Below, in pieces: positions 25,089 to 61,505 of a stretch of 64,000 nt of DNA. Below the pieces are notes generated by a model, which saw only the letters and a program-made list of their open reading frames with translations, had not been told where the DNA came from and did no database searches. Every line of letters starts with the position of its first letter. Position 1 is the stretch's first letter. This DNA is from Desulfobacteraceae bacterium (GTDB taxonomy: Bacteria; Desulfobacterota; Desulfobacteria; Desulfobacterales; Desulfosalsimonadaceae), in NCBI GenBank assembly GCA_014237465.1, contig JABZFM010000018.1, forward strand, positions 1 through 64,000, written 5' to 3'. A program made the translations under genes and the position numbers.

Positions 25089-26270
25089 TTATATGGAAAC
25101 AATGGTAATGGTCGTAGCTCCTGGTTCAAATCCTTCACCAATTCCACCGCCGTTATGAGCCAGACCAACCCTGGCATCTTTAACTTGTCTTTCGCCGCAT
25201 TCCCCTCTTAACTGCCAGAATAGTTCCAGAATCTGAGCGACACCTGTCGCGCCCATTGGGTGGCCTTTTCCCAGCAAACCGCCACTTGGACTGACAACAA
25301 CTTTTCCACCATAATCGGAAAGGCCTTTATCAATAAATTCTCCGCCTTCTCCACGGTTGCACAATCCAATATCTTCATAAGCGACAACTTCAAGTATTGA
25401 AAAATCATCGTGAACTTCAACAACATCTAAATCTTCAGGGCCAATTCCACATAAATTATAAGCCTGTTTTGATGCGTCAACAAAACATTTAAAACCGCTT
25501 AAATCACCGGCAAGGCCTTTATATGGTGATGACAATTGTGTTATGACCTCAATTTTTACCGGTTTTGCGGTGTGCTTTCGTGCAATATCTCCCGTACCGA
25601 TAATCATTGCAGCCGCACCGTCTGTGTTTGGACAACATTGAAGTTTTGTTAAGGGATCACAAATCATTTTTGAATTCAAAACTTCTTCTATTGTTACTGA
25701 TTTTCGAAACTGAGCATTAGGATTCATGACGGCATTTCTTTTATTTTTTACTGATACTTTGGCGAATTGCTCAACCGTTGTTCCATATTTGTCCATATGA
25801 GCTCTTCCCACCATTGCAAGGAGAGCCGGTCCAAATGCACCCGCCACATCTTGATTTAAGTTATTACCTGGAGGAGGAGATGCCATACCAGCAAGTGCAG
25901 CACCATTTGTTTTCATTAAATGGGACCAACATTCCACACCAAATACAATGGCCGTATCGCATATGCCATGGGCCACAGACTCCCAGGCATGTTTTAACGC
26001 ACTTGAACTGCTGGCACAGCCATTCTCATGGTTGTATGTCGGAATACCGGATATCCCGCAAAAAGAGAGGACCATCTGAGCGCAGGTTGGCTGTGAAGCA
26101 ACTGTTCCACAAAATGCTCCTTCAATTTCATTATGATTAATTCCAGCATAATCAATCGCCTTAAGGCAGGCCTCTTTTCCTAACTCATGTGATGATTTTT
26201 CGGATAATTTAATACCATTATACAGTCCGAATTTTGTCATACCTGCACCGAATATATAAACATTTCTCAT
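25089..26270 (-). CDS. Thiolase-family protein (SCP-x/lipid-transfer type)
   Basis: The 393 residues keep the nucleophile Cys85 in NGCASSSSALKHA and the GHPMGATG histidine loop. The NEAFA loop is replaced by VHDDFSILE, and the last Cys motif by HNGGGIGEG, as in SCP-x and Ltp-type thiolases. A DUF35 gene follows upstream at 5 bp; such pairs act as complexes in acyl-CoA cleavage. It could perform thiolysis, or a retro-aldol-type reaction if partner-dependent. Confidence 0.87.
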   Translation of the reverse strand: MRNVYIFGAGMTKFGLYNGIKLSEKSSHELGKEACLKAIDYAGINHNEIEGAFCGTVASQPTCAQMVLSFCGISGIPTYNHENGCASSSSALKHAWESVAHGICDTAIVFGVECWSHLMKTNGAALAGMASPPPGNNLNQDVAGAFGPALLAMVGRAHMDKYGTTVEQFAKVSVKNKRNAVMNPNAQFRKSVTIEEVLNSKMICDPLTKLQCCPNTDGAAAMIIGTGDIARKHTAKPVKIEVITQLSSPYKGLAGDLSGFKCFVDASKQAYNLCGIGPEDLDVVEVHDDFSILEVVAYEDIGLCNRGEGGEFIDKGLSDYGGKVVVSPSGGLLGKGHPMGATGVAQILELFWQLRGECGERQVKDARVGLAHNGGGIGEGFEPGATTITIVSI

Positions 26271-26275
26271 GTTAA

Positions 26276-26737
26276 TTATCTCTCCCTGATTATATCTCCT
26301 ATGGTAGGTTGAAACGCATACCCGATTACTTTCTTTCCGGTCATAAAATTATCCGAGAGTTTATCAATAATTAACTCGACTTCCATTCCTGATTTAACAT
26401 CTTCCGGTGCAATATTTTTTATTTGAGAAATAACAAGTAATGAATCGTCCTCTTTAAATTTAAGCATGGCCACTATATTTGGCAGTTGATAACCGGGGAC
26501 TGACCTGTGAACAATTGTGTAAGAATATATTTTTGCTGTTCTGCTTAAATAAATTTGATTAATATTTTTACATGAACAAACTCCGCATCTCTCCTTTTGG
26601 GGAAAGGACACATCACCGCAACTTTCACATTTACCAGCAATTAAACGTGGGCTTTCATCAGGTGTCTCGGGCAGTTTCAGCAGATTTTCCCTGACCCACA
26701 TTTCATTTTCTTCAAGTTTTATTCTCGTTTGCTCCAT
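26276..26737 (-). CDS. DUF35 OB-fold/zinc-ribbon protein, thiolase partner
   Basis: The 153-residue protein has an N-terminal zinc ribbon, CESCGDVSFPQKERCGVCSC, with CxxC pairs 11 residues apart. It continues with an OB-fold (AKIYSYTIVHRS, VAMLKFKEDDSLLV, GMEVELIIDKL). DUF35 proteins are obligate partners of thiolase-like proteins in HMG-CoA synthesis and sterol side-chain cleavage. It lies 5 bp before the thiolase gene. Confidence 0.88.
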   Translation of the reverse strand: MEQTRIKLEENEMWVRENLLKLPETPDESPRLIAGKCESCGDVSFPQKERCGVCSCKNINQIYLSRTAKIYSYTIVHRSVPGYQLPNIVAMLKFKEDDSLLVISQIKNIAPEDVKSGMEVELIIDKLSDNFMTGKKVIGYAFQPTIGDIIRER

Positions 26738-26781
26738 TTTTGATTAATTCCTTTTTTAACAGCCATAATTCAACATGCTTT

Positions 26782-27561
26782 CTAACCAGGCCCCAACAGG
26801 GTATCGACTCCGGCTATAATTCCACCATCAACAGGAATTGCTGCACCTGTAATAAAATTTGCTTCATCTGATGCAAGAAAAACAGCAAGATTAGCCACGT
26901 CGTCAGGCTGCCCAATTCTTCCCAAAGGCGTTTTTTCAACATAATAATTTGATAATTCTTCATCCTGAACTGCAATACTTACTAGTGGTGTATCAACAAT
27001 CCCGGGGCATATGGCATTTACAGTAATATTATCTTCGCCATAGTCTAAAGCCATTTGTTTTGTAAGTTGAACTGCACCTGCTTTTGATGTGGAATATGAT
27101 GCGCACATCTTGTGAGCAACAAGTCCCATCGCTGAAGCAATATTTATAATTCTTCCTCCACCTCCATCAGCCATAACCGGAATTGCTCTTTTACTCATCA
27201 AAAAATGCGAGTCGAGATTTACACTCATCACTTCCCTCCATCTGGAATACTCACATTCACATACTGCAGTCACATCCGATATACCTGCATTATTTACTAA
27301 AACATCTACTCTGCCGTATGTTTCTTTCGCAAAATCAACAATTCTATTGCAATCTTCTTCTTTTCCCACATCCCCAGTTAAACAGGTCACTTCTACCTGG
27401 TCTGATATTTCCATAATTTCTTTTTTTACTTCCAAAAGCCCGTCTTCTTCGATATCTGCCAATACTAACACGGCGCATTCTTTAGCATATCTCTTTGCAA
27501 TCGCCTTTCCTATGCCTGAACCTGCTCCGGTTACGATGGCAACTTTACTATGTAGCCTCAT
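26782..27561 (-). CDS. Short-chain dehydrogenase/reductase
   Basis: A classical SDR of 259 residues: TGAGSGIGKAIA for NAD(P) binding, NNAG, and YSTSKAGAV containing the YxxxK pair. An acidic end of strand 2 (ADIEEDG) favours NAD. It is the first gene of the long minus-strand operon with AAGGAG upstream. It probably oxidises a 3-hydroxyacyl-CoA or an alcohol intermediate. Confidence 0.9.
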   Translation of the reverse strand: MRLHSKVAIVTGAGSGIGKAIAKRYAKECAVLVLADIEEDGLLEVKKEIMEISDQVEVTCLTGDVGKEEDCNRIVDFAKETYGRVDVLVNNAGISDVTAVCECEYSRWREVMSVNLDSHFLMSKRAIPVMADGGGGRIINIASAMGLVAHKMCASYSTSKAGAVQLTKQMALDYGEDNITVNAICPGIVDTPLVSIAVQDEELSNYYVEKTPLGRIGQPDDVANLAVFLASDEANFITGAAIPVDGGIIAGVDTLLGPG

Positions 27562-51116: not shown

Positions 51117-51947
51117 CTAAAAATTGAAAAGATCTGCCCCACCGGTGACAGGGATGGCTGTGCCGGTCATATAACTTGAACGGTCTGATGCCAGGAATGC
51201 AACCAGAGGTGCTACTTCATCCGGATTTCCCATACGCTTTGACGGTATCCTCTCTTTGATCCGATCCAGCATTTTCGGATCGTGCAGCTTCACCGCTTCT
51301 GTTTCAATGAATCCCGGCAGAACCGCGTTGACGGTAATTCCATGCCTGGCCCCTTCAAGGGCAAGAGATCGTGTCAGGCCGATCATGCCGGCTTTTGAGG
51401 CACCATAACCCGGTTGAGCAAAAGCCCCTCTTAAGCCAACAAAGGAGGAAATATTAATAATGCGACCCCATTTTTTTTGTTTCATATGGGGCCAGACAGC
51501 TTGGATGCAGTTAAATGCACCTGTCAGATTAACATTCAAATCCCGTTCAAACATCTTAAGAGTCTGGTGTTCCATGGTTGCCATGTTATCCATCACACCG
51601 GCATTGTTCACCAGGATATCCACACCGCCCATTTGATCGAAAATTTCTGAGACGACTTTTTGAATTTGATCCGGCTGCGTGATATCCATTTTCATGCCCA
51701 GACTGTTGACGCCCATTTTCCGGATTGCCGCTGCTGTTGAGATTGTTTCAACATTGCCGGTATCGACAAAGTGTGCTGCCAGAAGGCTGTATTCAGCCAG
51801 TCTTTCTTTATCGACTTTCTCACTTTCAACAAGCAGATCTGTCACTGCCACATTGGCGCCGGTCTTGCCAAGGGCCAGGGCAATGGCTTTTCCCAGGCCC
51901 CTTGACGCACCGGTCACCAGTGCTGTTTTTCCGGATAATGTCAGCAT
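51117..51947 (-). CDS. Short-chain dehydrogenase/reductase
   Basis: The 276-residue SDR has TGASRGLGKAIALALG, NNAGVMDN and YGASKAGMIGLTRS with the YxxxK pair. An insertion of about 20 residues after strand 2 (VESEKVDKERLAEYSLLAAH) makes it longer than the 250-residue norm. It is similar in role to 26782-27561, probably a 3-hydroxyacyl-CoA or alcohol dehydrogenase of this operon. Confidence 0.88.
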   Translation of the reverse strand: MLTLSGKTALVTGASRGLGKAIALALGKTGANVAVTDLLVESEKVDKERLAEYSLLAAHFVDTGNVETISTAAAIRKMGVNSLGMKMDITQPDQIQKVVSEIFDQMGGVDILVNNAGVMDNMATMEHQTLKMFERDLNVNLTGAFNCIQAVWPHMKQKKWGRIINISSFVGLRGAFAQPGYGASKAGMIGLTRSLALEGARHGITVNAVLPGFIETEAVKLHDPKMLDRIKERIPSKRMGNPDEVAPLVAFLASDRSSYMTGTAIPVTGGADLFNF

Positions 51948-52039: not shown

Positions 52040-52318
52040 CTATTCCGGATGACCGTATTGTGTCCAGTTAATGTTGCATTCCGTCATGTCACTCTTCATA
52101 GCCTTATGAAATGATGCCGGGACTTTTGCGAAAAACGCATCCACCATATCTTTTTGCTCAACCACCGAACGGCCGTCTTCTTTGACAATACTTTCTGCTT
52201 TCGGGCCGATCATTCTTTTTGCGGTAGTACGTAAAACAAGCGGAATCTTGCTGACTAAAAAATCATATTCTTTCTGTGTCTTTTCATCCCAAGTAATTTT
52301 ATCACTTGAATTGGTCAT
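52040..52318 (-). CDS. PCP_red-domain small protein
   Basis: The 92 residues start with ITWDEKTQKEYDFLVSKIP and LVLRTTAKRMIG, then SVVEQKDMVDAFF, matching the small helical domain found at the C-terminus of BchB of protochlorophyllide reductase. Here it stands alone. AGAGGTG lies before the ATG. It may be a helper subunit of a reductase in this operon; no photosynthesis genes are near. Confidence 0.75.
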   Translation of the reverse strand: MTNSSDKITWDEKTQKEYDFLVSKIPLVLRTTAKRMIGPKAESIVKEDGRSVVEQKDMVDAFFAKVPASFHKAMKSDMTECNINWTQYGHPE

Positions 52319-54880: not shown

Positions 54881-56428
54881 TTATCCAATCGTGCGTTTAT
54901 ATCCCTCCCAAAACTTTTGCTTCACATCCTTGCGAAGTATTTTACCGACAGGCGTGATTGGCAGGGCTTCCCAGAATTCGATGACCTTGGGACACTTGTA
55001 ACCTGCCAGCCTTTCTTTACAGAAAAAAATGAGATCATTTTCTGCAATTGACTGATCTTTCTTTAAAACAACAGCCGCCTGGACACGTTCGCCCCACTTT
55101 TCATCCGGGGCAGACACAACAGCCGCCATGGAGACCGCCGGATGTTCATACAACACATCTTCTACTTCTTTGGGATAGACGTTTTCACCGCCGGTGACGA
55201 TCATGTCCGCCTTGCGGTCCACCAGGAAAAGGTACCCTTGCTCATCCACGTACCCTATATCACCGGAATGATACCAGCCGTCATGAATCGTCTGCTGTGT
55301 CAATTCAGGATTTTTCCAATACCCCATCATGACATGTTTACCTTGCACCACAATTTCTCCAATTTCGCCGACCTTTAATGGCTTGCCATGTTCATCCACA
55401 ATCCCCACTTCTGCGCAAAGAATGGGTTTTCCAGCACTGGCCAGCAGCCGTGATCTGTCTCCATCAAGAAAATGATCCTTCTCCGGCAGCATGGTGACGC
55501 CCAGCGCTTCGGTCATGCCGTATGCCTGGGACAAAATGTTGCCGAATTTCCGCATGCACTGCTTCAACAGTTCGATGGGCATTGGGCTTCCGGCATATGA
55601 GATGGACCTGAGGCTGGACAGATCATAGGCATCCACATCAGCAGACTGGAGCAACCATCCGTAAATGGTAGGCACTGCATTAATATGGGTGCATTTTTCA
55701 TCCTGGATAAGTTTTAATATGCCATTTAGATCCGGTTTCCGGTTTATCACCACTTTGCCGCCGACCATGAGGACGCAAAGGGCCGGCCAGAAAGACACAT
55801 GAAAAAGCGGCAGGACAAAACAGGTGGCATCCTTTTTTGTGAATTCCATGGCAATGGTCGCGGACAGAACAGCCGTCATAAGGTTGCGGTGGGACATCAT
55901 CACGCCTTTAGGCAGACCCGTGGTGCCGCCTGTATACATAAGGACCGCCAGATCATCTTCATCCACTTCAACACCGGGGTCGGTCTCCGGGGCATCTGCC
56001 AGCATGTCTTCATATTCAATAAACCCCGGGGGTTTATTATCGTATGCAATCCAGGAATTGATTTGCTTTAAGTCTTTGCCAATCTTTTGCACTCGTTCTT
56101 CATAACCGTCTCCCACAAAAAGGCAGGTCGCCTCGCTGTCATTTGCAACATGCACTATTTCTTCATCGGAAAGCCTGAAGTTTAAGGGAGTCACACTCAT
56201 GCCCAGTTTCGCGGCAGCAAAATACGTCTCAAGATATTTGTGGGTATTTTCTGCCAGCACTGCAACCCGGTCTCCTTTTTTAAACCCTAATTTTGTCAGC
56301 GCATTTGCAAGACGGTTCACACGGCGGTTAAGCCCAGCATGGGTTAATTGCTCGCCTTCAAATACGGTTGCCGTGTGGTCCGGGTAAAAAGACGCACTTT
56401 TCCGGGGAATATCGCCTAATGTGTACAT
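54881..56428 (-). CDS. AMP-dependent acyl-CoA ligase
   Basis: The 515 residues show the P-loop YTGGTTGLPKGVMMSH, the mid motif SQAYGMTEALG, GWYHSGDIGYVDEQG, and DRKADMIVTGGENVYPKEVE, plus a late Lys in PVGKILRKDVK. This is the fatty-acyl/benzoate-type ANL ligase. It is distinct from the PaaK-type at 23637. It activates the operon's acid substrate. Confidence 0.92.
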   Translation of the reverse strand: MYTLGDIPRKSASFYPDHTATVFEGEQLTHAGLNRRVNRLANALTKLGFKKGDRVAVLAENTHKYLETYFAAAKLGMSVTPLNFRLSDEEIVHVANDSEATCLFVGDGYEERVQKIGKDLKQINSWIAYDNKPPGFIEYEDMLADAPETDPGVEVDEDDLAVLMYTGGTTGLPKGVMMSHRNLMTAVLSATIAMEFTKKDATCFVLPLFHVSFWPALCVLMVGGKVVINRKPDLNGILKLIQDEKCTHINAVPTIYGWLLQSADVDAYDLSSLRSISYAGSPMPIELLKQCMRKFGNILSQAYGMTEALGVTMLPEKDHFLDGDRSRLLASAGKPILCAEVGIVDEHGKPLKVGEIGEIVVQGKHVMMGYWKNPELTQQTIHDGWYHSGDIGYVDEQGYLFLVDRKADMIVTGGENVYPKEVEDVLYEHPAVSMAAVVSAPDEKWGERVQAAVVLKKDQSIAENDLIFFCKERLAGYKCPKVIEFWEALPITPVGKILRKDVKQKFWEGYKRTIG

Positions 56429-56498: not shown

Positions 56499-57662
56499 TT
56501 AACTCCATGATTTGGGAAATCCCTGAAACTGCATCATCATATTCTTGCTCATCTCGTTGGAGATGGGAGAAAACTGGAGCTGATAGGCATCCCTTAAATA
56601 TCTCTGCATAGGGTACTCACTACAGATACCGTATCCCCCTAAAATCTCGGCGCCGAATTTCCCGGCATGAAGTGCGCCTTCCGATGCCACAAGCTTGGCC
56701 ATGGTCGATTCCAGATGGTAGGGTTTTCCCTGATCACACAGCCAGGCGGATTTGAATGTGAGGTTCCTTGAATTTTCCAGGTTGATGTACATATCCGCCA
56801 GGTAATGCTGAAGGATCTGGAACCGGCTGATGGGACCGCCGAACGCCTGGCGCTGCTTGGCATAATCAAAGGCATCTTCATATGCCGCCGCCATCAGACC
56901 GACTCCCATCATGGCACATGAGATACGTTCCGGATTCAGTATGGCCAGCATCTCATACCAGCCGTTCCCTTTGGTCCCCAGGAGGTTTTCATGGGGAATT
57001 TCCACATTGGAAAATGTAATGCCGGGGGAATCACAGTGATGGCAGCTTATCTTCGGAATTCTGGTGATGGTGATCCCTTTGCTGTTTGATGGGACCAGAA
57101 AAACGGAAAGGGATTTTGAGGGTTTGGCGTCTGTTTCCGTTTTGCAGATGGTGATCATATAATCGGATGCGTGGGAGGCCGTAATAAATACCTTTTCCCC
57201 ATTGATGATCCACCGGTCATCCTTTTCTTCGGCAGTTGTTGATAAGGCGCCAAGGATATCCGTGCCTCCGGTCGGTTCTGTTAAGGCCATGCAGGTTTTA
57301 AGTTTGCCGTCACCGATCAGGGGGAGATACTTTTCTTTCTGCTCGACGGTCCCCATCTCATCAATAAACCGTGTTCCAAAACCTGTGGTTGTGCCCACTG
57401 CCAGGGCCACGGACATGGATGCCTTGCAGATTTCTTCATACAGGATCATCTGGTCGAAATAGCCGAGTGCGTCGCCGCCGTATTCTTCCGGAAGCGCTGC
57501 TTTAAAAAAGCCGATATCGATAAATTTTTGCCAGAGCTCGTCCGGTGGGAAATCGACGTTTTCATCCATCCATTGGACATATTCATCATTCAACTCCTTT
57601 TTACAGAAGTGTTTCATCTCCTTGCTCATCATTTTCTGTTCTTTGCTAAAACTGAAATCCAT
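56499..57662 (-). CDS. Acyl-CoA dehydrogenase-like, lacking the usual Glu base
   Basis: The 387-residue acyl-CoA dehydrogenase fold has ALTEPTGGTDILGAL, VFITASHASDYMITIC, QAFGGPISRFQ and ILGGYGICSEYPMQRYLRD. Where IYEGT carries the catalytic Glu, the sequence is FSPISNEM (364-371), as in CaiA-type proteins in which that Glu is absent. The family function would thus be a reductase or another reaction rather than classical dehydrogenation. It sits in the operon between ligase and hydratase. Confidence 0.85.
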   Translation of the reverse strand: MDFSFSKEQKMMSKEMKHFCKKELNDEYVQWMDENVDFPPDELWQKFIDIGFFKAALPEEYGGDALGYFDQMILYEEICKASMSVALAVGTTTGFGTRFIDEMGTVEQKEKYLPLIGDGKLKTCMALTEPTGGTDILGALSTTAEEKDDRWIINGEKVFITASHASDYMITICKTETDAKPSKSLSVFLVPSNSKGITITRIPKISCHHCDSPGITFSNVEIPHENLLGTKGNGWYEMLAILNPERISCAMMGVGLMAAAYEDAFDYAKQRQAFGGPISRFQILQHYLADMYINLENSRNLTFKSAWLCDQGKPYHLESTMAKLVASEGALHAGKFGAEILGGYGICSEYPMQRYLRDAYQLQFSPISNEMSKNMMMQFQGFPKSWS

Positions 57663-57798: not shown

Positions 57799-59118
57799 TT
57801 ATGTTGCATCCGAAGCAATGTTGCTTTTTTTCTGGCTCTGGGTCAGCTGATCCGGTGCTGCCCTGAACTGATCCATCATTTTTTGGATATCCGGTGCGTA
57901 CGTCAGCCACTGGATGCCATTTCGCTCCACCGCCAGTGCGGTCTCCATATCGCAGCCATCAGCAGACCGTGCCATGATTTCCTTTCCCATGCGAAGCGCG
58001 ACCGGTTTTTTGGATGCAATATTATTGACCACTTTTTCAAATTGTGCTTCGAATTCATCGTCTTTAAAAACCCTTGTCAGCAGACCCATGTCGTACATTT
58101 CTCTTGCCGTGTAATCCTTTCGACCGGAAAAAATGATTTCCCGGGCGCGGAATATCGGCATGCTTCGCGGCAGGCGGGCGGTTCCACCCCACCCGGGCAA
58201 TACGCCCATGTTGATTTCCGTTGTTCCCATCTTTGCCGATTCTTTGACATAAAGGAGATCGCAGGCCAGGGCAACTTCCAGGCCGCCGGCCAGGCAGTGC
58301 CCGTTGATTTTACAGATAACGACTTTTTCACAGCTGCTGATAGCACGCTGTACATCGAGTCCTTCATGGGACAGCCAGTTGAGGCTATTTTGATGTTCGG
58401 CCAGAGACGGAAAAATTTCCAGATCACCGCCGGTACAGAACGCTTTTTCACCGGCGCCAGCCAGCACAACAACACCCACGGACGCCTCGTCTCTTACCCT
58501 GCGGAAGGCGTCGATGAGTTCTGCGGCCATCCGGCGGTTAATGGCATTATATTTGTCCGGCCGGTTTAATGTGATCGTACATACCGCGTCATTGTTTCCA
58601 CCAATTTCATATATAATGGTCTGATACGCATCCGGACTCATGCCGGTTTCCGATTCTGCCGCAACGGCCTCACCGTCTTCTGAATCCGGTGACGCCAGTC
58701 TTAATGTTTCGTCAGCCGGTTGAAACATGGGAAGCGAACATTCCGGGGAAACTTCCTCAAACACCACTTCAACGTTCATGCCGATCTCCACATCATCCGG
58801 GTTGCAATTCACAATCCGGGTGGTCATGCGGATGCCTTCTTTTAGGTCCACCATGGCAATCACATAGGGGAGATCGCCCATGAATTTGGGCTCCACCATA
58901 TCCAGCATGGTGGTAAAAGTATAAACCGTTGCTTTGCCGCTGGCTTCTTGCCAGTCCAGATGATCCGACCAGCATTCCGGGCACACTTTTTTCGGAAAAA
59001 AGATATTGGAATTGCAATTATCGCAATGCTGAATCAGAAGCTTTCCCTGTTTGGTTGCCTTCCAGAAATCACGTGTCCAGGGTTGCATCACTGGAATTGG
59101 TCTTTGAGTCTGTGTCAT
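57799..59118 (-). CDS. DUF35 zinc-ribbon/OB-fold fused to enoyl-CoA hydratase
   Basis: Residues 1-150 are a DUF35 domain with zinc cysteines at 32, 35, 46 and 49 (CDNCNSN...CPECWSD). Residues 170-439 are a crotonase: VCTITLNRPDKYNAIN, CTGGDL oxyanion loop, Glu281 in LAGGLEVAL and Glu301 in TTEINMGVLPGWGGT. Both catalytic Glu of enoyl-CoA hydratase are kept. I chose the ATG at 59118 because GGGAGGG lies upstream, 2 bp past the thiolase stop. The fused partner sits next to a thiolase-fold gene, as ChsH2-DUF35 does beside Ltp2. Confidence 0.88.
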   Translation of the reverse strand: MTQTQRPIPVMQPWTRDFWKATKQGKLLIQHCDNCNSNIFFPKKVCPECWSDHLDWQEASGKATVYTFTTMLDMVEPKFMGDLPYVIAMVDLKEGIRMTTRIVNCNPDDVEIGMNVEVVFEEVSPECSLPMFQPADETLRLASPDSEDGEAVAAESETGMSPDAYQTIIYEIGGNNDAVCTITLNRPDKYNAINRRMAAELIDAFRRVRDEASVGVVVLAGAGEKAFCTGGDLEIFPSLAEHQNSLNWLSHEGLDVQRAISSCEKVVICKINGHCLAGGLEVALACDLLYVKESAKMGTTEINMGVLPGWGGTARLPRSMPIFRAREIIFSGRKDYTAREMYDMGLLTRVFKDDEFEAQFEKVVNNIASKKPVALRMGKEIMARSADGCDMETALAVERNGIQWLTYAPDIQKMMDQFRAAPDQLTQSQKKSNIASDAT

Positions 59119-59120
59119 AA

Positions 59121-60299
59121 TTATTCCCTCCCCCATACGGTTGCGATAAAGTTCATGCCTGATCCCCCTGCCGTGTTCTGAAATGCGTATTTTGCGTCCG
59201 GCACCTGCCTTTCTCCTGCTTTTCCCATCATCTGCCTTGCTGTTTCAATGTAGGTGGCCATGCTCACGCCGGAACCGGTATGACCGCGGCCTGTGGCATC
59301 ACCGATGGTTGCCCAGGGCATTTTTCCGCCCGGCCATGTATGGCCCTCCATAAATACTTTTCCCGCCTGACCCGGTTCGCAAAGACCGGCTGCTTCCATG
59401 AACATGGTATGCCCCACCGGATATGCCAGGTATACATTCCAGAGATTGATATCTTCCTTGGACACTCCTGCATCTGCCAGGGCTTCACCGGTGGCATCAC
59501 GGTAACCATTCGTCAGCTCCTCATTGGTTCGTGTGGTTGTAAATGCGGAAAAATACCGTGAACTTTCGCCAAGTTTATATGCGGCCGGCACGCCCATTTT
59601 TTTAGCGATTTCAGCAGATGCCACCACCATTGCGCCGCCGCCGTCTGCCAGCACATTGCACTCCCGTTTATGCAGCGGTGAAGAGACCATGCCGGATGAA
59701 AGAATTTTTTCTACAGGAGGGACCTCTTTTCCGTAAAAAATGGAATTTTCATCCATGGCCGCCCATTTTCTTAAGGATACAACCACTGAGGCCATTTCTT
59801 CTTCGGTTGTACCGGAATCATGCATATAGCGGCGCGTCATCATAGCGATAATACCGTTGTACGTGGTTCCGTAGGGGTATTCCCACTGGAGATCGATGCC
59901 GGCTTTGGCAAAAAAATTGATCAGATCAGGCATCGGGATAGTGGAGTGAACCGTTACATGGGGAATCAGGACGATCTTTGCCTGACCGCTCTCAATGTAT
60001 TGCTCGGCCAGCCGCAGGCAATTGGATGTGGACGCCCCACCGGCATTGCAGATACATACTTCCCTGCAGCCTTTTAAGCCGAGTTCTTCGGGTATTTTAC
60101 CGAACGAGATTTCAGCTGAAATCTGCGGCTGGGCCTGGGGAGCAACCGTAACAACCCCTTCCACATCGTTTTTATCGATCCCCGCATCTCTTACAGCGGC
60201 GATACATGTTTCATAAATGATATCCCATCGTGACCGGTTCGGATATGTACCGGTGGGAACCTCCCCGATGCCGATGATCGCCAAATTTTTCTTACTCAT
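59121..60299 (-). CDS. Thiolase-fold protein lacking nucleophile Cys (Ltp2-like)
   Basis: The 392 residues keep the thiolase fold (LAIIGIGEVPTG, GDATGRGHTGSGVSMATY). The nucleophile loop reads NAGGASTSN with Gly88 at the Cys position, the NEAFA/HDxF loop is replaced by NVYLAYPVGHT, and the terminal Cys is absent (QNTAGGSG). Classical thiolysis is therefore unlikely. An Ltp2-type retro-aldol role with the following DUF35-hydratase is a good alternative. It is the first gene of the operon; AGGAGG precedes it. Confidence 0.85.
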   Translation of the reverse strand: MSKKNLAIIGIGEVPTGTYPNRSRWDIIYETCIAAVRDAGIDKNDVEGVVTVAPQAQPQISAEISFGKIPEELGLKGCREVCICNAGGASTSNCLRLAEQYIESGQAKIVLIPHVTVHSTIPMPDLINFFAKAGIDLQWEYPYGTTYNGIIAMMTRRYMHDSGTTEEEMASVVVSLRKWAAMDENSIFYGKEVPPVEKILSSGMVSSPLHKRECNVLADGGGAMVVASAEIAKKMGVPAAYKLGESSRYFSAFTTTRTNEELTNGYRDATGEALADAGVSKEDINLWNVYLAYPVGHTMFMEAAGLCEPGQAGKVFMEGHTWPGGKMPWATIGDATGRGHTGSGVSMATYIETARQMMGKAGERQVPDAKYAFQNTAGGSGMNFIATVWGRE

Positions 60300-60632: not shown

Positions 60633-61505
60633 ATGAGAATAAAAGAACTGGTCGAAAAATCAGGTGTGCCCCGCACCACCATACATTTTTATCTTCGGCA
60701 GGGACTGCTACACCCGCCACACAAAACCGGGCGGACAATGGCCTACTATGATGAAAGCCACTTAAAGCAGCTAAAGGAAATACAGAACCTGAAAAAGGGT
60801 GCACGGGTGCCCATCGCATTTCTGAAAGAACAGGTTAACTCAATAAATCAAGTGGATTCACCGGTGTCCACGGCATATAATGGATATGATGTTGGAAAAC
60901 CTGTGACCACAACAAAAGAAAAAAAGAAAAAGCGCCAGGAGATTATCAAACACGCCATACAGATATTCAGCCATAAAGGATACCACCAAACCAAGATTTC
61001 AGACATCACCGGTTCAATGAAAATTTCCACAGGCACCTTTTATTTATATTTTAATAACAAGCGCGACCTGTTTATTGAGGTTATTGATGATGTTTTTCAC
61101 AATATCGTGGGCGAGGCTGCCGTTGCTATAAAGGGGGAAGAGGATTTCCTTAAAAAGTTGAAAATCAGGGGACGGGTGTTTCTTAAAAATTACACAAAAT
61201 ACAGTGAAATATTAAACCAGCTGCGGGCTGAAATGGCCGGCGAGGACAATTGGCCGGTAAAAAAAATCAAGAAAATCTATCACCATCTGACCCGGCCTGT
61301 GATCAAGGAGATTCAAGATGCGGTGGATGCAGGTATTATCCGAAAAATCGATCCGGACCTGGCAGCATATGATCTCACAGGGCAGCTTGAAATGATGTCT
61401 TTGCGGCTCTCATTAGATGATAAATATAATATTGAGGATGCCATCAATTTTATCGTAGATTTATCGCTCGATCATTTGTTTATAAATGATAAAAACGACA
61501 CATAG
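60633..61505 (+). CDS. MerR-TetR fusion regulator
   Basis: Residues 1-70 are a MerR winged helix (MRIKELVEKSGVPRTTIHFY, LRQGLLHPPHKTGRTMAYYD). Residues about 100-150 are a TetR HTH (RQEIIKHAIQIFSHKGYHQT, KISDITGSMKISTGTFYLYF), followed by a TetR ligand domain to 290. Two DNA-binding units in one chain are unusual. It has GGGAGG upstream, stands divergent to the catabolic operon, and is followed with no gap by the gamma-carbonic anhydrase gene. Confidence 0.9.
   Translation: MRIKELVEKSGVPRTTIHFYLRQGLLHPPHKTGRTMAYYDESHLKQLKEIQNLKKGARVPIAFLKEQVNSINQVDSPVSTAYNGYDVGKPVTTTKEKKKKRQEIIKHAIQIFSHKGYHQTKISDITGSMKISTGTFYLYFNNKRDLFIEVIDDVFHNIVGEAAVAIKGEEDFLKKLKIRGRVFLKNYTKYSEILNQLRAEMAGEDNWPVKKIKKIYHHLTRPVIKEIQDAVDAGIIRKIDPDLAAYDLTGQLEMMSLRLSLDDKYNIEDAINFIVDLSLDHLFINDKNDT

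Follow-up and report, generated by a model that had tools for sequence, protein, structure and literature searches.

What can a protein of the thiolase fold do once its nucleophilic Cys has been replaced, and why is its gene followed by that of a hydratase carrying a DUF35 domain? This question is raised by two minus-strand genes in the 64,000-nucleotide stretch of contig JABZFM010000018.1 (Desulfobacteraceae bacterium, genome of 5.09 Mb) that we analysed as a whole, hereafter the window. The product of positions 59121–60299 (P0001, 392 amino acids) is a thiolase-fold protein and the proposed retro-aldolase, and that of positions 57799–59136 (P0002) is a fusion of DUF35 with a crotonase; residue numbers follow these two proteins. 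Both open reading frames (ORFs) lie where a first-pass annotation, made from the letters of the DNA, had placed them, and the gene pair is real and conserved. We suggest, with a probability of about two in three, that P0001 and P0002 form a hydratase/retro-aldolase couple working like the Sal/Shy system of bile acid side-chain degradation in Comamonas testosteroni, with a crotonase as the hydratase. Judged on sequences, this was the best supported of the readings that we considered, because P0001 shares the residue class of Ltp2 and Sal, because its family has no invariant Cys, and because gene order, domain order and linker resemble those of Sal/Shy while no obligatory 3-hydroxyacyl-coenzyme A (CoA) dehydrogenase lies nearby.

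Active Site of the Thiolase-Fold Protein

Pfam recognised Thiolase_C_1 at residues 259–390 of P0001. Both in the alignment with solved chains and in the joint alignment, Gly88 occupied the position of the nucleophile Cys of true thiolases, as the first-pass annotation had seen, and Y290-L-A-Y293 replaced the HDxF motif, which that annotation had noted as missing; P0001 thus has neither the Cys nor the HDxF His by which an SCP2-type thiolase is recognised. True thiolases had Cys at column 88, His at column 290 (in HDxF) and GHP at 339–341, wherever these columns were covered. The GHxxG His of thiolases is kept in P0001, as H340 in GHTGSG. A contrast to P0001 is provided by an ordinary Cys thiolase of the window (C88, HDDF, GHP), which is encoded together with a short-chain dehydrogenase (SDR) and an unfused DUF35 protein at 25089–27561 on the minus strand.

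Residues G88, Y290, A292 and H340 were identical in all 50 family rows covering the four columns (38 distinct genes by contig, 12 of them entered twice through two tools), so that this pattern is not due to chance. Across 33 aligned family members, down to 56% identity, 96 columns were invariant and none of them was a Cys; the invariant His and Tyr were H118, H340, Y141, Y147, Y290, Y293 and Y350. Cys82 and Cys84, the nearest to the lost nucleophile, were replaced in 6 and 12 of the 50 rows, respectively. The lack of any invariant Cys makes thiolysis through a covalent Cys very unlikely, and we rejected a thiolase function for P0001. The initial description of the protein as Cys-less holds for the catalytic residue, although other Cys are present. 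The last Cys of thiolases is also missing, as had been remarked, but this does not discriminate because none of the true thiolases compared over that segment (7yvy, the product of window positions 25089–26270, one Rhodococcus protein and the covered part of BbsB) had a Cys there either.

With both the nucleophile Cys and HDxF gone, P0001 might have no catalytic activity and serve the hydratase for docking or acyl binding; inert partner domains exist in steroid hydratases (PMC11321319; this and the other papers are cited from excerpts of their text). We consider this very improbable in view of the invariant columns, which include NAGG (85–88), QWEYP (138–142), Y290, A292–P294 and GRGHTGSGV (337–345).

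The same columns were compared across the superfamily in a table of 86 rows (85 distinct, one gene standing twice), drawn from paralogues in the own genome, best matches in a sample of the Nocardia family and in the own phylum, sister loci, plasmid proteins and solved chains. Rows shorter than 340 residues or without a blast hit were omitted, the DUF35 flags of this table miss distant DUF35 genes, and column 88 was doubtful by eye in three rows (L126, L127 and L131). Columns 88 and 290 read Gly/Tyr (G/Y) in 57 rows, Cys/His in 25, and Cys/Asn, Ala/Ser and Ala/Asn in one each, with column 88 absent from one row; neither Gly88 with His290 nor Cys88 with Tyr290 occurred among the 86. Both published retro-aldolases, Ltp2 and Sal, belong to the G/Y class. 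Because the rows share common descent and were selected for being best matches, the pairing marks a class but does not count as independent statistical evidence. A tree was built from P0001, nine outside rows and the full-length thiolase-like proteins of 35 of the 39 module loci described below; the P0001 family stood apart from Sal and Ltp2 in it, but the terminal branches leading to these two are 2.3 and 2.6 changes per column long and carry long-branch warnings, so that little weight attaches to this placement.

Several side branches of the superfamily showed related settings. The sister subfamily L172–L183 (36–42% identity to P0001) had Gly88, Tyr290 and His340 in 12 of 12 members, and its loci partly share the ligase, acyl-CoA dehydrogenase, enoyl-CoA hydratase (ECH), flavoprotein and amidohydrolase genes described below, most fully L172, L173 and L176. 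Distant relatives from Rhizobium (39%) and Rhodococcus (35%) also had G88, Y290 and H340, with A or S at 292. On a Rhizobium etli plasmid (L052, 8175–10592), the gene of a Gly/Tyr/His thiolase-like protein (38.5% to P0001) is followed by an OB-fold (DUF35-like) gene, with acetoacetate decarboxylase-family, hydantoinase-family and P450 genes nearby. On plasmid pR8L1 of Rhodococcus sp. 008 (L053, 7344–11425), the gene of a G/Y thiolase-like protein (35% to P0001) stands in one row with those of an acyl-CoA dehydrogenase, a MaoC protein, a zinc-ribbon (DUF35-like) protein and an ECH, so that hydratases of either type accompany one presumed aldolase. Outside the window, the own genome holds two tandem thiolase-like pairs (L139 and L141, on G000:C46 at about 49–52 kb and 58–61 kb), in which one partner has Ala88 with Ser or Asn290 and the other Gly88, Tyr290 and Asn340, two DUF35 hits (L002, L003) lying within a few kb on the same contig; these pairs are possibly heteromeric enzymes without a nucleophile Cys.

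The DUF35-Crotonase Fusion

The longest ORF of P0002 encodes 445 amino acids and overlaps the P0001 gene by 16 base pairs (bp). The likeliest start is Met7 (ATG at 59118), which gives 439 amino acids, lies 2 bp past the P0001 stop and has GGGAGG just upstream, within the end of the P0001 gene; the spacing of 2 bp given at first therefore applies to this start and not to the longest ORF. Pfam found zf-ChsH2 at residues 25–58, OB_ChsH2_C at 62–127 and ECH_1 at 182–424. The DUF35 part (58702–59118, minus strand; residues ~7–145) combines a zinc ribbon (C38, C41, C52, C55) with an OB fold and matched the DUF35 partner chains of Sal (9myr_B, 1.6e-23) and Ltp2 (6ok1_B, 7e-22); the four zinc-ribbon Cys were present in 37 of 37 DUF35 rows. 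The hydratase part (57802–58626, minus strand; residues 171–445) belongs to PF00378 and has the fold and both Glu (E287 and E307) of a crotonase, from which its activity is predicted. Of 36 ECH rows, 32 had the Glu pair; the remaining four (L060 twice, L078 and L085) are pieces of genes that are broken or cut. The first-pass reading of P0002 as a zinc ribbon fused to a crotonase rather than to a MaoC-type hydratase was thus borne out.

Between the two parts, residues 149–170 (58627–58692, minus strand) form a low-confidence linker, with a predicted local distance difference test (pLDDT) score below 50 in the AlphaFold model, and in 11 fused proteins the mean conservation of columns 139–170 was 0.54 vs 0.80 and 0.87 for the domains. 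The predicted template modelling (pTM) score of the P0002 model was 0.54, and all 50 structure matches listed were crotonase-superfamily chains, none of which informs on the DUF35 part.

Beside the window protein, 10 intact fused homologues were recovered, DUF35 and ECH being mostly encoded by adjacent separate genes in the other loci. L059 (cut) and L060 (broken frame) are also labelled as fused in the tree, on which the fused label needs at least three changes. By this mapping the DUF35-ECH fusion appears to have been gained or lost more than once, which fits a functional coupling of the two domains.

Comparison With Known Systems

The architecture closest to that of the pair was found in Sal/Shy (PDB 9myr). 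The two systems share Gly at the nucleophile position, a Tyr base in Y-x-x-Y, a DUF35 partner, a single chain in which DUF35 precedes the hydratase, a hydratase gene downstream of the aldolase gene, and a low-confidence linker, of 26 residues in Shy and about 22 in P0002. In PMC11321319, Shy is described with DUF35 N-terminal and MaoC C-terminal and the shy gene downstream of sal; the abstract of PMC12329534 calls the DUF35 domain of Shy C-terminal, but its zinc ligands Cys31–Cys47 point to the N terminus. The latter paper modelled the 26-residue low-confidence linker and reported no significant channelling, with 93% of the hydrated product trapped. The differences are nevertheless clear: the hydratase is MaoC in Shy and a crotonase in P0002, the zinc ribbon is Cys3His1 in Shy vs four Cys in P0002, Sal and P0001 are 24% identical in the Foldseek alignment, and no steroid genes were recognised in the module of P0001 and P0002.

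The first-pass annotation had instead taken the sterol side-chain system Ltp2/ChsH1-ChsH2 (PDB 6ok1) as its model, a choice that we replaced by Sal/Shy. Ltp2 has Gly at the nucleophile position, Tyr294 as base and a related DUF35 partner (7e-22), but its YDHF corresponds to YLAY in P0001; ChsH1-ChsH2 is a MaoC-type hydratase in which ChsH2 ends in the DUF35 domain (PMC11321319), whereas P0002 is a crotonase with an N-terminal DUF35. We did not file P0001/P0002 as a member of either system because the hydratase fold and the catalytic acid differ; on these comparisons a mode of action like that of Sal/Shy is the most likely one for the pair.

SCP2-type and archaeal DUF35-partnered thiolases (7yvy, 6esq) and BbsAB (7pxp) share the fold, in several cases the DUF35 partner, and the GHxxG His where covered, but they have the HDxF His and, where covered, the nucleophile Cys (column 88 is uncovered in 7pxp). 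A BbsAB-like benzoylsuccinyl-CoA thiolase, the toluene enzyme, was rejected: the NCBIfam BbsB model gave 100.8 bits vs a cut-off of 750, and HDAF stands there where YLAY stands in P0001. Hydroxycinnamoyl-CoA hydratase-lyase, by its description, likewise combines hydration with retro-aldol cleavage to acetyl-CoA; in this enzyme a single crotonase performs both steps. The Ech and PhdE routes of hydroxycinnamate catabolism are described in PMC10765951. The AtuA-like lyase ThnQS of anaerobic naphthalene degradation handles a tertiary 3-hydroxyacyl-CoA for which further oxidation is impossible, but by annotation and description it is another type of enzyme and cuts within the ring (PMC12016498). 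The open-licence PMC literature matches listed, mainly on steroid systems and anaerobic hydrocarbon pathways, included no report of a crotonase in the role suggested here. A lyase route for cyclohexylacetate, which belongs to older work, did not turn up in this literature either.

Conservation and Distribution of the Module

On the minus strand, P0001 and P0002 are followed by an acyl-CoA dehydrogenase (56499–57662), an AMP-forming acyl-CoA ligase (54881–56428), an amidohydrolase of PF04909 (53796–54806), an old-yellow-enzyme (OYE)-type flavoprotein of PF00724 (52407–53777), a small protein matching DUF2621 (52040–52318; 1.5e-7), an accessory SDR (51117–51947) and a 4Fe-4S protein. A regulator with MerR and TetR domains is encoded divergently (60633–61505, plus strand). 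In the amidohydrolase, E15xH17, H182, H217 and D275 were invariant in 26 aligned members, a set that we take to be the metal ligands. The promoter scan (13 vs 17.4 in shuffles) and the terminator scan (15 vs 14.0) remained near shuffle level.

One scan of a genome collection (84,980 species) with an alignment of 15 relatives retrieved 41 loci; L094 and L095, each a piece of 50 residues at the end of a contig, were dropped. Counted by accession prefix, the remaining 39 loci represent 34 genomes, as some loci share a genome (L057/L059, L058/L073/L080, L065/L070 and L068/L085); L073 and L080 overlap on one contig, with some neighbours counted twice. Gene families were clustered at 40% identity, and contig ends lower all locus counts. 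The hosts were Desulfobacterales relatives (among them Desulfosarcina widdelii and Desulfatibacillum alkenivorans), assemblies of SAR324, Nitrospirae and Dehalococcoidia, and two Nocardia, i.e., the module is found mostly in Desulfobacterota relatives and also in Nocardia.

In 37 of the 39 loci, the gene right after the thiolase-like one encoded DUF35, alone or fused; the other two loci stop at the thiolase-like gene itself. Among 36 evaluable loci, 33 had ECH either within the fusion or as the neighbouring downstream gene, the contigs of L077, L090 and L091 ending too early. Family members were recovered for the acyl-CoA dehydrogenase in 33 of the 39 loci, ECH or the fusion in 31, the ligase, amidohydrolase and OYE-type flavoprotein in 27 each, the regulator in 19 and the SDR in 11; in other loci, two OYE subfamilies (~70% and ~32% to the window protein) fill the same place.

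Both Nocardia loci kept the thiolase-like gene, DUF35, ECH, the acyl-CoA dehydrogenase and the ligase, a set that, from its gene content, would make an enoyl-CoA, hydrate it and could cleave the product without an obligatory adjoining 3-hydroxyacyl-CoA dehydrogenase, although such a dehydrogenase may be encoded at another place in the genome. The amidohydrolase orthologue was not found in either Nocardia genome (best matches of 25% at 5e-7 and 27% at 1e-6, with partial coverage); one of the two loci has instead an SDR and a different PF04909 protein. In a sample of the Nocardia family group (201 genomes, with the starting genome among them), a close orthologue (57%) occurred only in the starting genome, and the next best reached 30–32%; this suggests that the module arrived there horizontally. 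Nocardia are aerobes, and a distribution limited to anaerobes was rejected since two of them carry the module. The idea of an anaerobic version of the known machine, put forward in the first-pass annotation, is thus too simple; in addition, the Sal/Shy papers name a Shy of the anaerobic cholesterol degrader Sterolibacterium denitrificans (PMC12329534, PMC11321319).

These counts bear on an alternative in which the genes serve a beta-oxidation with a hydrolytic end: ECH would hydrate, the SDR would produce a 3-ketoacyl-CoA, the amidohydrolase would cleave it like CouO of hydroxycinnamate catabolism, and the thiolase-like protein would have another or an auxiliary role. CouO is described as an amidohydrolase-superfamily enzyme of the last deacetylation step, and HpeF/CouO are termed beta-ketoacyl-CoA hydrolases in the excerpted literature. 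The presence of the amidohydrolase in 27 of 39 loci with its invariant set of presumed metal ligands, and a ligase whose closest solved relatives include feruloyl-CoA synthetase, speak for this possibility. We nevertheless hold it to be unlikely, as the SDR orthologue is present in just 11 loci and both Nocardia loci keep the thiolase-like gene and its four companions in genomes where the amidohydrolase orthologue was not found. A hydroxycinnamate pathway was rejected as the main reading, the resemblance to cou being one of gene set alone, with CouO and the Corynebacterium phd proteins set beside it by description. In a plasmid search with the amidohydrolase, 214 records were retrieved, all below 60% identity, and H12, one record among the matches listed, contained no cou-like cluster.

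Discussion

A hydratase/retro-aldolase couple accounts for the G/Y class, the lack of an invariant Cys and the Sal/Shy-like layout of the two genes, but several observations weigh against it. One concerns the catalytic acid, as P0001 has that of neither known aldolase. The Tyr of YDHF/YDCY, with which Y290 aligns, is the base, and Ltp2 uses Tyr344 as the acid where Sal uses Cys304 (PMC12329534). P0001 has Ala292 at the position of Sal Cys304 and His340 at that of both Ltp2 Tyr344 and Sal Gln352, Ala292 and His340 being present in 50 of 50 family rows; Sal and Ltp2 also differ from each other here. The Asp of YDxx is replaced by L, M, V, I, A or G in the P0001 family. Many G/Y proteins are without known function, so that members of the class may differ in the reaction they catalyse. 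Taken as a whole, the model of P0001 is good (pLDDT 83, pTM 0.88), but its confidence falls below 50 in loops bearing the active site (135–145, 206–214, 252–257, 333–340 and 379–381), and its active-site geometry is therefore not to be judged; Foldseek ranked the aldolases (6ok1_A, TMq 0.78; 9myr_A, 0.80) no higher than the thiolases (6esq_A, 0.85; 7yvy_A, 0.80). Finally, the only ECH found in L066 and L087 lies upstream and is 32–35% identical, and none was found on the broken contig of L093.

The retained GHxxG His and the Y-x-A-Y-P motif, both departing from the known aldolases, together with the many G/Y proteins of no known function, would also agree with P0001 being another C-C bond enzyme, decarboxylating, condensing or performing a Cys-free retro-Claisen cleavage, that acts on the crotonase product. 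This seems distinctly unlikely, since Tyr290 stands where both known aldolases have their catalytic base, and the natural substrate of an enzyme coupled directly to a hydratase is a 3-hydroxyacyl-CoA.

For the hydratase/retro-aldolase couple, we infer the following reaction. The ligase and the acyl-CoA dehydrogenase would produce an enoyl-CoA, to which the crotonase part (E287/E307) would add water to give a 3-hydroxyacyl-CoA. The DUF35 part would dock on the thiolase-fold dimer and tether the crotonase through the flexible linker. Tyr290 of P0001 would take the proton of the 3-hydroxyl group, the C2–C3 bond would break and an aldehyde or ketone would leave; the acyl-CoA enolate would then be protonated, most likely by His340, our candidate for the catalytic acid, H118 being the other invariant His. 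Neither a covalent Cys intermediate nor free CoA would be used.

The substrates are possibly beta-branched or alicyclic acyl-CoAs. The closest solved relatives of the ligase are a fatty-acyl-CoA synthase and a feruloyl-CoA synthetase. Four loci (L055, L058, L073 and L080) have a FadL/TodX porin gene close to the module, and four (L058, L073, L080 and L087) have a glutaconate-CoA-transferase-like gene pair there; each of these two hints rests on two genomes, because L058, L073 and L080 belong to a single one. An IpdAB-like ring hydrolase near the module was rejected, the PF01144 pair being closer to glutaconate CoA-transferase.

When naphthalene is degraded anaerobically, a cyclohexylidene-acetyl-CoA is hydrated, most effectively by the crotonase-like ThnL, to a tertiary alcohol that blocks beta-oxidation; an AtuA-like lyase cuts this alcohol, and for the first ring opening the leading candidate is ThnN, a protein of the amidohydrolase superfamily (PMC12016498, partly on unpublished data). 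The module may similarly be a route, mainly in relatives of sulfate reducers, for acids with a ring or branch at the beta-carbon, e.g., cycloalkylacetic or naphthenic-type acids, although we regard this proposal as rather unlikely when all its steps are taken together. The ligase and dehydrogenase would then give a cycloalkylidene-acetyl-CoA, the crotonase would add water to form a non-oxidisable tertiary alcohol, and the thiolase-fold aldolase would release acetyl-CoA and a cyclic ketone, whose ring the OYE-type enzyme, a dehydrogenase and the amidohydrolase would desaturate, oxidise and open hydrolytically. If so, the module would be an aldolase answer to the block that the AtuA-like lyase solves in anaerobic naphthalene degraders.

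The genes can be tested in named strains, Desulfosarcina widdelii PP31, Desulfatibacillum alkenivorans DSM 16219 and Nocardia xishanensis NBRC 101358. For a family mostly annotated as "thiolase", the data suggest a residue rule, Gly88 with Tyr290 for aldolase-like proteins vs Cys88 with His290 for thiolases. If the proposed couple is real, the linking of a hydratase to a thiolase-derived aldolase through DUF35 would be a modular invention, tied neither to steroids nor to one hydratase fold, and anaerobes could finish acids that are beyond beta-oxidation without oxygen or a 3-ketoacyl intermediate.

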